A DNA stretch of 64,000 bases from Peromyscus leucopus (taxonomy: Eukaryota > Chordata > Mammalia > Rodentia > Cricetidae), in contig NC_051068.1 in assembly GCF_004664715.2 (NCBI RefSeq), forward strand, positions 16,674,668 to 16,738,667. Reading direction: 5' to 3'. This document shows, one piece after another, positions 14,321-24,809 of the stretch. The notes below the pieces were generated by a model, which did no database searches, was not told the origin of the DNA, and saw only the letters and a list, made by a program, of their open reading frames with translations. A program made the translations under genes and the position numbers. The first letter of the stretch is position 1. Each line of letters starts with the position of its first letter.

Positions 14321-14508
14321 TCACCAAACTGTTGTGTACCCTTTTAGATGTGAAATATATATCTATATATTCATGAATATATTTGCATATGGCAAACTAA
14401 ATGCATATTTTCTACTTTGTTTTAAAATGCACCAGTTATTCCATATTCATTTATTTAATTCAATTATTTAATTAATATTTACTGAAGACCTAGACACAAT
14501 TCTGTAGA

Positions 14509-14946
14509 TGTAACCAAGCATCTTATTAAATAAGAAACACAGAACCAATGTAAAAGAGAAAGCCAAGAGGTCAGAGCTCAGAGCTAAAACCTTACCCTTA
14601 CTCCTGCAGTGCTCCTACCTCTCCAAATAGAGACCTACTTCCTGTGTGTATGTCTTTACATAGTCTTTCTGTTCTGCCTTCTCATTGGTTGTAAACCCAA
14701 ACACATGACTGCCTCATCACTGCCTGTAAGTACAGCCTCCAGGTCTTAAAGGTGTATGTCTCCAATGCTGGCTGTATCCCTGAACACACAGAGATCTACC
14801 TAACTCTGTCTACCACGCGATGGGATTAAAGGTGTGCGCCACCACCTCCATGATCTTGCTATGGCTCTAATAGCTCTGACCCCCTGGCAACTTTATTTAT
14901 TAACATACAAATAAAATCACATTTCAGTACAAATAAAATACCACCA
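14509..14946 (-). repeat. solo LTR, ERVK-like ('TGGTGGTATT' family)
   Basis: Read on the minus strand it starts 'tggtggtattttatttg' and ends 'aataagatgcttggttaca'. On + it begins TG and ends CA. 'taga' flanks both sides, a possible 4-bp duplication. Its start resembles that of the LTRs at 21735-24800. A B1-like block ('attaaaggtgtgcgccacca') is embedded. Confidence 0.55.
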
Positions 14947-21065: not shown

Positions 21066-21734
21066 TCCAAGTCCTTACTTTTGATAAACTTATATCCTGG
21101 TAGAAGGAGGAGGAGGGGAGGGGAAGGAAGAGGAGGAAGAGGAGGAGGAGATGGATCTGCATCTAGATCACTTGGATTGAGGGTGGGCAGGGCTTGAAAC
21201 CCAATGAATAGATGGGATGTTGTTGAGAAAAGGCATACTGGACATTGAGAGACAGAGAGTCCCTTTCATTAATATATTTGGGATTACTCAGAAGCGCTTT
21301 CGGGAGCCTCCTCCCTTACAAGGAAACAAGCTGGACATGCCTGATTGTCCGTTCTGATTTCTTCCTTTCTACTGCCTGAGTGGCATGGTTGTGTAGCCTC
21401 AGCTGTGGTGGCCTTGGTACCAGCACTCCCTCTGGGACATTTGTCATGAAGATGGGAGCTTGTTCTGAGCAAGCCAAGCATAAAATAAAGTAATATGTAC
21501 AAAGCCTGTTCACCTTTTTTTATTGGGTAACAAATGCTTCAATTAGTCAATGTATTGATTCCTCTATAAATTATTATGTGTTGAAGTTTCTGAATGCTTA
21601 CTAATTTAATATTTGAAAAAGATGAACCTATAATCAGTATGGGAACTAATTAGATATGAATTTTTGTAAATATTGGATTACCACAGTGCTAATTTTTATA
21701 TAGTAAATGTAGGTGGTTTTTTTTTTGGGGGGGG

Positions 21735-22210
21735 TGTCCATGCTGGTAGATCAGAGAGACAGAACAAGCCACAGCTATCTCACCTGGGCCGGATCCTCAG
21801 CTGGTCTTGTCTCCTCAGACTGGAGGCCTCTGAGTCCCCATCTGGAATGGGTCTCAGCTCAATTACTGCTCAAAAGCCTGGATGCTTAACCAGCCAAAAT
21901 CTCCTAGTTTCTCGTCCTCACGCCTTATATATCTGTCTGCTTTCTACCACCACTCCCTGGGATTAAAGGCTGGCTTTCTGGGATTAAAGGCTGGCTTTCT
22001 GGGATTAAAGGCGTGTGTCACCAGGCTTGGCTATTTCCAATGTGGCCTTGAACTCACAGAGATCCAGAGGGATTTCTATCTCTGGAATGCTAGGATTAAA
22101 GGTGTGAGTGCCACCATTTCCTAGCCTTTGTATCTAGTGGCTGTCTGTTCTCTGACCCCAGATAAATTCATTAGAGTACACAATATTTTGGGGAACACAA
22201 TACCACCACA
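21735..22210 (-). repeat. 3' LTR of the composite element
   Basis: On the minus strand it starts 'tgtggtggtattgtgttccc' and ends within 'ccagcatggac', short of the U5 end seen in the other copy, next to a C8/A10 tail. It contains an embedded SINE-like block and the repeated 'gggattaaaggctggctttc'. Confidence 0.8.
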
Positions 22211-22650
22211 TTTCCTCTCTTTTTGTCTAAAATTAAAAAAGCTTATAACTAATACAAGAAAAACTATCTTCAATAAGTATATGCAATATACAGTCAAGAT
22301 TACATTAACAATGTCTAGTCCATTAACATTTGACAGATCCAGACAAAAAACTCCATTATATATATTAACAATGTCCAGTCCAGTAACATCTGATAAACTC
22401 AGACCAAAAAAATTTTCATTACTTATCTTATTTAAAACAAGTAGTTCCTTTTTAAAAGTAGATTCCATAATCTCCCTTTTTATCTTACCATATCCATATT
22501 TTCTCTTTTTTCTTTTCATAATAGATTCATTAGTCTACCTTTTGTCATTTTTATATCTTCCCCTTTTTCTTCTGTGTAGATTCAGTGATCTACCTATTTA
22601 TCCTATTATTTCTTTATCTTTTTTCTCAGAGTAGATTCGATTATCTCATA
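22211..22650 (-). other. ERV 3' internal region
   Basis: AT-rich, non-coding. A purine tract (minus strand) adjoins the LTR at 22211-22225. About 60-70 bases around 'attaacaatgtctagtcc' are repeated at 22303 and 22364. The text resembles the internal part of the element at 35291-37344 ('cctttttaaaagtag' style blocks), so the two may be relatives. Confidence 0.5.
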
Positions 22651-23003
22651 TCTATATTCTCTTTTTCTTTTTGCTTTCTAGGGGTGAAGATATCTTTAGG
22701 GAATCTTGAAAAGAAAATTTTGGGTTAATCATCAAATTCTGTATCGTTTGTCCAGTCTCTGCATAATAGGAAAGTTCAGGGCTTGTTTCAAGTCTTTGTT
22801 CAAGTAGTCTGTAAGGCTGGATCATCTCAGCTAGCCATCTCAAAATTGTCCTAAGCAGTTTGTAGTCCAAAGCAGATCTTTCCGTGGTGTTAATCAGCTT
22901 AATGGCTTTATCATAGTCCATGTGGAATCATCGTTGTAGGATCCTGTCATCTTTTTGAAGATTTCAAAGTCACTGTTAGGCATGGTCATGGTTTCCTGCA
23001 GAC
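22651..23003 (-). other. unidentified segment in the composite element
   Basis: A minus-strand frame covers 22652-22921 and ends in Lys-rich codons; another starts near 22990. I cannot name a parent. It could be ERV internal remnant or a third captured host sequence. It lies between the A24 tract of the TGFBR1 fragment and the ERV 3' region. Confidence 0.3.
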
Positions 23004-23316
23004 TTTTTTTTTTTTTTTTTTTTTTTTGCCTCCTCTGTGGTTTGGAGCAATCACAGTCCGATAAATGTCTGTCTCTCGGAACCATGAACATTCTTCCCTA
23101 GAACAGAAAATCTTCACAACAATTTCTCCACACCATTTGTCTTGCCAAACTTTTCCAAACTGACCTTTGCCGATGCTTTCTTGTAACACGATGGTCCTGG
23201 CAATTCTTCTCTGAACCAGCAGCAGTAAACCCTTCATCCCAGGTAGCAGCATCACCGTAGTCACCAACACGATGAGAAGGAGCTGGCAACGTGGAGCAGT
23301 AGCCACTGCTTCCATG
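23004..23316 (-). pseudogene. Tgfbr1: TGFBR1 cDNA fragment, internally deleted
   Basis: The parent is the TGF-beta type I receptor, a membrane Ser/Thr kinase. The frame starts at 23316 with a signal peptide ('[18 protein letters not shown]'). It jumps straight to the end of the GS region and the kinase N-lobe ('[15 protein letters not shown]', then '[10 protein letters not shown]'). The extracellular and transmembrane parts are missing, so exons were skipped or deleted. It stops soon after the N-lobe and runs into A24 (T24 on + at 23004-23027). There are no introns. Several residues differ from the parent. It is a retrocopy fragment inside an LTR unit; I infer no receptor activity. Confidence 0.8.
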
Positions 23317-23535
23317 GTCCCACCACTGTTTGTGGCTCAGTCCAGGCCAAAGCTGCTCCCAAGCCTCCTAGGCCGGCCTCAAACTCGGGATCCTACTGCC
23401 TCTGTCTCCTTCAGCAAATCCTACCGGTGTGCACCACCACAACCGCCTGAGTGTAGCTTGGGCCTGAGCTGGGCTCACAAGGCCACAGGCAAACAGCTTT
23501 TTCATGAATTCGTAACAGGAACGTTGGGGTCCAGA
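23317..23535 (-). other. leader and B1-like segment before the TGFBR1 piece
   Basis: Starts (minus strand) with 'tctggaccccaacg', a likely worn Lys-type primer site directly after the LTR end. A short unidentified stretch follows, then a degenerate B1-like block ('gagtttgaggccggcctagg'). Confidence 0.45.
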
Positions 23536-23717
23536 TGTAGAAGGAACCTTAAAAGTTCTTATTAATAAAATCAAACCTGAGGCGAGTTATTGGGGTCCAT
23601 ACTGGTAGATCAGAGAGACAGAACAAGCCACAGCTATCTCACCTCACCGGATCCTCAGCTGGTCTTGTCTCCTCAGACTGGAGGCCTCTGAGTCCTCATC
23701 TGGAATGGGTCTCAGCT
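23536..23717 (-). repeat. partial LTR between the two captured fragments
   Basis: Matches the U5-side 180 bases of the 5' LTR, ending 'ggttccttctaca' on the minus strand. It joins the SRRM2 text at 'agctgagaccc'. Its presence shows that the unit arose from two LTR-plus-cargo joins, not one. Confidence 0.85.
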
Positions 23718-24266
23718 ACCATTGGCCTCTGCCCTGGGGTTTCTTCCTTGCCCGCAGGGTTCACATCCTTCTCCAGCAACATGAGTCGAAAGGTCGCCAC
23801 TTTCTCCTGAATCTGCTGTTCTTCGTACCCCTGCTCTTCCATCATCTCCTCCAGCTCGAGGCATCGCAGCTCCACGCGCCGCTTGCGCTCGTGGTCCAGG
23901 ATGTCAGGATTAGGACGCTTCACCAGGGCAGCCTCCAGGCGCCGCAGTTCCTCCTCTCCCTTGTAGCCAGGCCGCTCACCACGGCGGCCCCGCACCAGGG
24001 ACAGGTTGTGCTGGACGTAGCCATTGGTGCCGCTGCCCCGGGGCGTCGGCAGCCCGATCCTGTTGTACATGGCCCTGTGCCCAGGGGGGCACCACCGCTC
24101 CCGCCGCCACCACAGCCGCCGCCGCCGCCGCCGCCGGCCGCCGCCTCCGACGGGGAGAGGTCCTGCCGCAGCTGCCGCTCGAGTCTACGAATCCCTCGGG
24201 GCCTGAAGCCACAGCCTCGCAGGTCCGCCTGCCTCCGCAGCCGCCGCCGCCGCCGTCGCCCCCCGG
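23718..24266 (-). pseudogene. Srrm2: SRRM2 5' cDNA fragment
   Basis: The parent SRRM2 is a large nuclear SR-repeat spliceosome protein. The frame starts with ATG at 24070 ('MYNRIGLPTPRGSGTNGY') and runs about 115 codons through 'RLEAALVKRPNPDILDHE' and 'EEMMEEQGYEEQQIQEKVA' with no intron. It then enters LTR sequence. Upstream to about 24266 is a CGG-rich stretch that fits a 5' UTR and abuts the primer-site remnant. The conserved N-terminus makes the parent clear. Only a small part of the 5' end of the mRNA is present, so it is a captured fragment. Confidence 0.88.
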
Positions 24267-24281
24267 CTTTTGGGCGTCAGA
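24267..24281 (-). promoter_or_regulatory. primer-site remnant, tRNA-Lys-like
   Basis: On the minus strand 'tctgacgcccaaaag' follows the LTR end 'ttctaca'. It differs by one base from the start of a 'tggcgcccaa' Lys-type site. The captured cDNA begins at or just after it. Confidence 0.45.
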
Positions 24282-24800
24282 TGTAGAAGGAACCTTAAAA
24301 GTTCTTATTAAGAAAATCAAACCTGAGGCGAGTTATTGGGGTCCATGCTGGTAGATCAGAGAGACAGAACAAGCCACAGCTATCTCACCTGGGCCGGATC
24401 CTCAGCTGGTCTTGTCTCCTCAGACTGGAGGCCTCTGAGTCCTCATCCGGAATGGGTCTCAGCTCAATTACTGCTCAAAAGCCTGGATGCTTAACCAGCC
24501 AAAATCTCCTAGTTTCTCGTCCTCACGCCTTATATATCTGTCTGCTTTCTACCACCACTCCCTGGGATTAAAGGCTGGCTTTCTGGGATTAAAGGCTGGC
24601 TTTCTGGGATTAAAGGCGTGTGTCACCAGGCTTGGCTATTTCCAATGTGGCCTTGAACTCACAGAGATCCAGAGGGATTTCTATCTCTGGAATGCTAGGA
24701 TTAAAGGTGTGAGTGCCACCATTTCCTAGCCTTTGTATCTAGTGGCTGTCTGTTCTCTGACCCCAGATAAATTCATTAGAGTACACAATATTTTGGGGAA
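24282..24800 (-). repeat. 5' LTR of the composite element
   Basis: Near-identical to the 3' LTR over the shared part, but it continues through R/U5 to 'ttctaca'. It lacks the first 15 or so bases ('tgtggtggtattgtg' region) at its outer end, where the target duplication begins. Confidence 0.8.
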
Positions 24801-24809
24801 ATGTAGGTG

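Follow-up and report, generated by a model that had tools for sequence, protein, structure and literature searches.

Srrm2 and Tgfbr1 mRNA pieces in a non-autonomous ERVK-type retroelement of Peromyscus leucopus: probable acquisition by reverse-transcriptase template switching

Our analysis concerns a 64,000-nucleotide stretch of Peromyscus leucopus DNA (contig NC_051068.1, positions 16,674,668 to 16,738,667 of the forward strand), called the window below. Positions 21716-24798 of the window are one insertion, lying on the minus strand throughout, in which a retroelement with long terminal repeats (LTRs) carries pieces of two host messenger RNAs (mRNAs), Srrm2 and Tgfbr1. The minus-strand order is LTR, primer site, Srrm2, an R-U5 segment without U3, a second primer site, a leader, Tgfbr1, an A-run, a retroviral tail and an LTR (Table 1). 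Both LTRs are incomplete; aligned with each other, they have 446 identical bases, 2 mismatches and 10 bases left unaligned (99.35% in a separate alignment), a similarity that would fit a young parent element. No gag or pol coding capacity was found in the five window reading frames scanned, a subset of the open reading frames: they gave one Pfam match, cwf21 in the Srrm2 frame, and none above the cut-off in the other four. The longest minus-strand open reading frames are 132, 124 (Srrm2), 114 and 109 amino acids. The primer-site motif TGGCGCCCAACGT is present in most relatives, and we take the primer sites to resemble that of tRNA-Lys(CTT).

An earlier note, made from the letters alone, had seen intronless, minus-strand SRRM2 and TGFBR1 cargoes here. 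Both are real: the Srrm2 frame matches SRRM2 residues 1-116 (E=1.6e-67), and the Tgfbr1 piece matches TGF-beta receptor type-1 (E=3.8e-25, PDB match). The view that cargo directly follows the primer site holds for Srrm2 but not for Tgfbr1, which is preceded by a family leader of ~204 nt. The partial LTR reported between the cargoes is present, at 181 nt (23536-23716) rather than 182 bp, and consists of U5 and R with no U3. The Tgfbr1 piece is not a continuous 5' cDNA: exon 4 begins directly where exon 1 stops, without exons 2-3, and ~residues 253-366 are deleted.

The Srrm2 piece derives from a spliced mRNA. It crosses the exon 1/2 and 3/4 boundaries (the interior of host exon 2 is N in the assembly) and is 99% identical to exon 3 of the host gene, which lies on contig C24 (L038). 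Host exon 3 ends CCAAT/GTGAGT and exon 4 starts TAG/GGTAACTGAGACCCATCAG; the cargo junction reads CCAATGGTA/GCTGAGACCCATTCC, and the corresponding LTR sequence is TTGAGCTGAGACCCATTCC. Comparison of the cargo with the host exons and the LTR places the change four nucleotides into exon 4, where Srrm2 gives way to R beside an 11-base identity, CTGAGACCCAT. No longer word is common to the 517-nt 5' LTR and the 229 nt tested (host exon 3 and the 120 nt that begin with exon 4). The longest words that the 5' LTR shares with other cargo parts are 8 bases for the exon 2 part and fewer than 6 for exon 1, and comparison of the 3' LTR with Srrm2 had a similar outcome. By simple arithmetic with equal base frequencies, the chance of an 11-base run at a given junction is ~3 in a million. 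The Srrm2-R junction itself is firm. The R-U5 unit starts 73 nt after the TATA box, so R probably lacks its first 40-50 nt. At the upstream end of the cargo, 10 nt of primer site are joined to the 5' untranslated region (UTR) in CGG-rich sequence, where the exact position of the join cannot be placed.

The break in the cargo is near the exon 3/4 boundary, as might be expected if nuclear splicing had joined exon 3 of Srrm2 to an acceptor site in an LTR and the chimeric transcript had then been reverse transcribed. This origin is very unlikely, however, given that the join contains GGTA, the four bases with which Srrm2 exon 4 begins, that the window LTR reads TTGAGCTGAG and not GGTAGCTGAG, and that the match between Srrm2 and the LTR continues for 11 nt.

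When 40 of 51 first-look candidates were scored, and the host gene, a C20 match and short CGG-type matches were set apart, the Srrm2 piece was found in the window and at four other places, two of which are a duplicated pair. None of the four is on the host-gene contig C24. The 3' Srrm2-R junction is common to all five copies (window, C3, C11 and both on C21), and the three that retain the 5' end all share CCCAAAAGCC. Chance or an assembly error behind Srrm2-R-U5 was rejected because the identical junction occurs at four other places. The C3 copy consists of an LTR of another family (LTR-B), a primer site, Srrm2 and an R-U5 with a 30-nt internal gap that ends TTCTACA, flanked by the duplication CCCAAA. 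The C11 copy consists of an LTR, a primer site, Srrm2 with a shortened 5'UTR, R-U5, a primer site and a 3' LTR truncated in U3, flanked by ACAAGC; this 3' LTR belongs to another subfamily and is 86-88% like the 5' LTR. The C21 copies are units of 308 and 309 bp that run from TGATGG, inside Srrm2, to CTACA and are flanked by TCTGTC. Each is a TG..CA element whose 'U3' consists of Srrm2 sequence, and an empty-site relative (L021) aligns across the insertion point over 117 columns at 78.6% with 2 gaps. The C3, C11 and C21 insertions all have TG..CA ends and 6-bp target duplications, and are thus of integrase type. One base (CCCTGCGGGC) is found in the window and C21 only, which makes these copies the closest. 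A single Srrm2 capture followed by spread is the simplest reading of these copies.

The two C21 units (L023/L024, C21:111.70-111.72 Mb) lie 7.2 kb apart and have identical near flanks, indicating that the surrounding region was probably duplicated; the sequence around them is presumably L1. The match set apart on C20 (C20:27257965, L039) is 79% alike to query 308-437, and the many places that the Srrm2 5'UTR matches through GC-rich sequence were discounted as CGG repeat. Read-through transduction of the oncogene type, in which RNA reading through a provirus carries along the host sequence downstream of it, was also considered and is not supported, Srrm2 being a spliced 5' part that lies upstream of R-U5 and the host gene being on a contig with none of the four other copies.

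The arrangements of C11, with Srrm2-R-U5 and a primer binding site (PBS) but no Tgfbr1, and of C3, with Srrm2 behind another LTR family, indicate that upstream LTRs have been exchanged. They are also what would be expected if an Srrm2-bearing and a Tgfbr1-bearing element had recombined at the DNA level or, within one particle, at the RNA level, leaving the R-U5 between the cargoes as a remnant of the crossover. The internal R-U5 units of different loci are 96-99% alike, and their similarity to the window 5' LTR and to an ordinary Tgfbr1-family LTR (L006) is 95-99%; this about equal closeness to the two LTRs likewise agrees with recombination. Nevertheless, recombination leaves unexplained that R-U5 starts at the 11-base Srrm2 exon 4 match in every copy, and we consider it unlikely as the source of this segment. 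Exchange may have acted later, joining the finished Srrm2-R-U5 module to the Tgfbr1 body.

Tgfbr1 is an old capture that forms the body of a large non-autonomous family of the endogenous retrovirus K (ERVK) type, of which the window holds a deleted form. Host Tgfbr1 exon 4 starts TAG/GTTTACC (L080), and the window piece is alike at 159/185 bases of this exon (86%); the end of exon 1 was deduced from the same exon 4 start. In all four long or window copies inspected, sequence resembling exon 1 runs straight into the start of exon 4, and in one long copy (L068) exon 4 continues into exon 5 without an intron. A protein search, in which 85 of 1831 candidates were scored, returned the host exons on contig C2 and 32 rows out of 87 that are unbroken from ~residue 181-219 to 343-391; one further unbroken row, 37% identical, was excluded as likely another receptor. 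The leader and MID1, the latter part of the retroviral tail, were present in 12/12 loci examined from these 32 long-form rows. The short form has at least 40 copies, 39 of them besides the window at 96-98% (40 scored out of 1988 first-look candidates). Both LTR ends were visible at 7 of the 12 short-form loci inspected. The LTR pairs at these 7 are identical in four cases, differ at 3 bases in two and at 14 plus a gap in one; their LTRs run TG..CA, and their 6-bp duplications are exact in five, match at 5 of 6 in one and are absent from one. Based on these comparisons, there was probably a single, ancient capture of a spliced Tgfbr1 mRNA that skipped exons 2 and 3, and the short form would have arisen by internal deletion of ~residues 253-366. 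Srrm2 mRNA (exons 1 to 4) was added after Tgfbr1, upstream of R-U5, and is a recent capture.

The window copy itself is a long interspersed nuclear element (LINE)-type (L1) insertion of polyadenylated double-composite RNA. The marks of L1 are poly(A), a duplication of 7-20 bp and a TT/AAAA-like target. In the window copy we found an A10 tail, an 11-bp duplication and the TT/AAAA-like target TGTTAAAAACACC; the minus-strand 5' flank is TTAAAAACACCTACATTT, and the 3' side has A10 and then CCACCTACATTT. TG..CA ends of integrase type with a short target duplication are absent. A single duplication pair surrounds the entire insertion, so all parts of the composite RNA were copied together in one event. 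Since the copy begins in U3, upstream of the TATA box, its RNA started upstream of the usual start. The A tail and 11-bp duplication, together with the A-run behind the Tgfbr1 piece, could also be read as signs that Srrm2 and Tgfbr1 landed beside LTRs as independent LINE-type retrocopies, a case that the earlier note had itself raised. This fails on the one duplication that encloses the entire composite. Further, the Tgfbr1 A-run is an internal family repeat of varying make-up that follows coding sequence, and the Srrm2-R-U5 junction also lies inside integrase-type insertions elsewhere, so that independent retrocopies are extremely unlikely.

Taken together, we consider it likely that a non-autonomous ERVK-type retroelement acquired host mRNA twice through template switching by reverse transcriptase. 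The junctions, the duplications and the order of the parts can be read directly from the DNA; the intermediates that follow we infer, and the order of the later steps is moderately supported. The usual pairing partner for the R of strong-stop DNA is the R at the 3' end of the genome RNA. In the case of Srrm2, tRNA-primed minus strong-stop DNA, comprising U5 and part of R, would have annealed to exon 4 as a false R acceptor and been extended toward the mRNA 5' end. The nascent DNA would then have switched to the PBS of a co-packaged second RNA, copied its U5-R and finished a normal first-strand transfer. The predicted product is a compound LTR, U3-R-U5-PBS-Srrm2-R-U5, with integrase ends, which is the arrangement of C3. 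A provirus with compound LTRs would transcribe RNA carrying two primer sites. Use of the first site would yield LTR-PBS-Srrm2-R-U5-PBS-body-LTR, as in C11 and the parent of the window copy, and C3 could result if the second site were primed or if plus-strand strong-stop DNA integrated. The second site in combination with plus-strand priming at the purine tract GGAGGAGA/TG inside Srrm2 would give the C21 unit. Last, L1 would have inserted polyadenylated RNA of the double composite at the window site.

The R-U5 loci and related-LTR loci that we compared are a sample of best matches and not a census. Besides the cargo loci, 15 R-U5 matches reach the primer site (query position 739-740). Thirteen have the Tgfbr1 leader; of the remaining two, one has an R-U5 unit of another LTR family and one has no primer site. 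The earlier note had taken the repeated leader as the sign of a family that regularly carries host 5' mRNA ends, which this sample does not bear out. The places to which strong-stop DNA is misdirected account better for the repetition than does a family routinely carrying such ends. Past the primer site, no third host cargo was recognised by eye, host mRNAs not being compared, in 15 related 5' LTRs and 11 LTR-B loci (8 with a primer site). The proposal in the earlier note that an LTR element took up spliced mRNA in two separate captures is upheld, with template switching as the best explanation. The copy count and the alignment of cargo to host that it suggested gave Srrm2 at four other places and Tgfbr1 in a large family, both aligning to host exons. 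However, the two cargoes are not equivalent, Tgfbr1 being an old, fixed family body and Srrm2 apparently a single recent capture.

Further compound insertions were found at two loci. At L046/L055 (C6:22229460-22230960, minus strand), LTR-A and a primer site are followed by the R-U5 of LTR-B, and this LTR-B part is like the C3 LTR-B at 112/116 bases. The direction of mis-transfer at L046 is opposite to that at C3. At L062 (C10:4576622 region, minus strand), LTR-B and a primer site of 10-11 nt are followed by LTR-C, which was called from its ends and which we take to be an LTR, within one outer duplication, CCTATC. The two loci, of which one has an imperfect duplication, suggest that strand transfer was misdirected to primer sites.

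Several points weigh against the proposed route of template switching. The full Srrm2-Tgfbr1 composite is known only from the LINE-type window copy, with no integrase-type copy among the candidates scored, and no provirus with two compound LTRs was found, which leaves that intermediate a deduction. With the 11-base match probably 40-50 nt inside R, strong-stop synthesis would have had to end before completion. The upstream Srrm2 junction is inside CGG repeats, and the mRNA 5' end and any microhomology there are therefore not resolvable. Purine-tract priming at C21 is weak evidence, being one insertion event in a cargo where 3/6 purine runs of at least 7 precede TG. The L046 duplication is at best TTGACC/TTCACC, and its end is CTACC, not CTACA. 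Finally, the second LTR of L062 may include U3, which the model does not predict, and its route may differ.

With these points in mind, we advance a wider proposal only tentatively. It is possible, although we would stop short of favoring it, that a host mRNA with a chance R-like stretch acted as a false 3' end for an endogenous retrovirus (ERV) and later provided the polypurine primer and U3 with which a new end could integrate. On this view, misdirected strong-stop DNA would repeatedly make compound LTRs with two primer sites, and these would propagate themselves and let the ERVs of this genome exchange leaders and gather host mRNA.

Other observations concern LTR-B. At two LTR-B loci, L058 (C8:70424765 region) and L066 (C22:20074209 region), the primer site is extended by ~45 further, tRNA-like bases, presumably the reverse complement of lysine tRNA (CTT). 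Other sequence follows these bases directly in L066, as if over-copied plus-strand strong-stop DNA had integrated. An LTR-B element at L057 (C13:80025670 region) has a different sequence past the primer site (TGGGGCAAGAGTTTCC), which indicates that LTR-B serves more than one internal body. The window also holds an older LTR-B relative on the minus strand at 14507-14946, which is 84% like the C3 LTR and looks like a solo LTR.

Table 1. Parts of the composite insertion and its flanking duplications, in window coordinates
Feature	Position	Strand	Remarks
Target-site duplication AAATGTAGGTG, left copy	21705..21715	.	11 bp, L1-type length; minus-strand context TTAAAAACACC at 5' side
Poly(A) tail of retroposed RNA, 10 nt	21717..21726	-	T-run on the plus strand; minus-strand reading GGACACCCCCCCCAAAAAAAAAA
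3' LTR, U3-R only, without U5	21727..22210	-	Starts TGTGGTGG behind purine tract AAAAAGAGAGGAAA
Retroviral internal tail (MID1+MID2)	22211..23003	-	No Pfam family above cut-off in frames scanned; MID1 in 12/12 long-form loci examined
A-run, 24 nt, Tgfbr1 piece to tail	23004..23027	-	A or CA repeat, of other lengths, in three long copies inspected
Tgfbr1 mRNA piece	23028..23315	-	Exon 1 / exon 4 join at ~23230/23231; internal deletion at ~23050
Family leader, ~204 nt, primer site to Tgfbr1 start codon	23316..23519	-	Matched in 12/12 long-form loci examined
Second primer binding site, mutated TGGACCCCAACGTT	23520..23533	-	Most relatives: TGGCGCCCAACGTT
Partial LTR, 181 nt, R + U5, end TTCTACA	23536..23716	-	R probably without its first 40-50 nt
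11-nt identity CTGAGACCCAT, LTR R and Srrm2 exon 4	23705..23715	-	Likely template-switch site
Srrm2 mRNA piece	23717..24269	-	5'UTR, ATG at 24070, codons 1-116, 4 nt of exon 4 (GGTA)
First primer binding site, 10 nt TGACGCCCAA	24270..24279	-	Joined to Srrm2 5'UTR
5' LTR, 517 nt	24282..24798	-	Without first 15-17 nt of U3
Target-site duplication AAATGTAGGTG, right copy	24799..24809	.	11 bp

In a literature search by titles and abstract openings, with subscription papers mostly outside its scope, no description of Tgfbr1 or Srrm2 capture by these elements was found. Capture of host mRNA by retroviral template switching is already known; its placement at first-strand transfer, the compound LTRs and a host-derived U3 are new as far as the literature searched shows. 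The copies described here offer a natural, genome-fixed record of first-strand transfer onto a host mRNA in which the pairing is still readable, and the mechanism predicts which host messages can be caught, namely those matching R.

LTR-mediated retroposition was reportedly treated by Tan et al. in 2016. As portions of PMC5408686 describe it, a spliced host mRNA is joined to an LTR element by template switching at microsimilarity and then integrated. The same features were found here: the mRNA is spliced, an 11-nt microsimilarity lies at Srrm2-R, and C3, C11 and C21 have integrase ends. Unlike the process in those portions, the switch would be placed in R at first-strand transfer, resulting in a compound LTR and two primer sites, and the product has multiplied and gained an LTR-like unit of host coding sequence. 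The window copy resembles an L1-mediated processed retrocopy in its A tail, 11-bp duplication and TT/AAAA-like target, but its template was a composite retroviral RNA that started in U3 and no ordinary mRNA. In retroviral 'patch repair', as outlined in part of PMC4997597, host RNA with fortuitous microhomology bridges two viral templates; there it is known from experiments and patients, whereas the junction described here is fixed in a genome at several sites. Transfer of plus-strand strong-stop DNA to the PBS of the other genome produces asymmetric HIV-1 LTRs (sections of PMC9278108). C11 is similar in that its 5' LTR is full and its 3' LTR lacks part of U3, but differs in that its LTRs come from different subfamilies and enclose host mRNA.

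The deer mouse has non-autonomous mysTR-related ERVK subfamilies whose internal part was replaced by 'a nonhomologous sequence', according to sections of PMC10089650, the main text of which holds no match for TGF, captured or mRNA. Compared by description only, these subfamilies and the Tgfbr1 family are alike in being high-copy, ERVK-type and non-coding, with an interior unlike that of autonomous parents and homology just upstream of the 3' LTR. The difference is that the interior of one family is here identified as Tgfbr1 mRNA. A receptor mRNA is thus the source of the body of a high-copy non-autonomous ERV family, of the kind whose interiors are left 'nonhomologous' in those sections.

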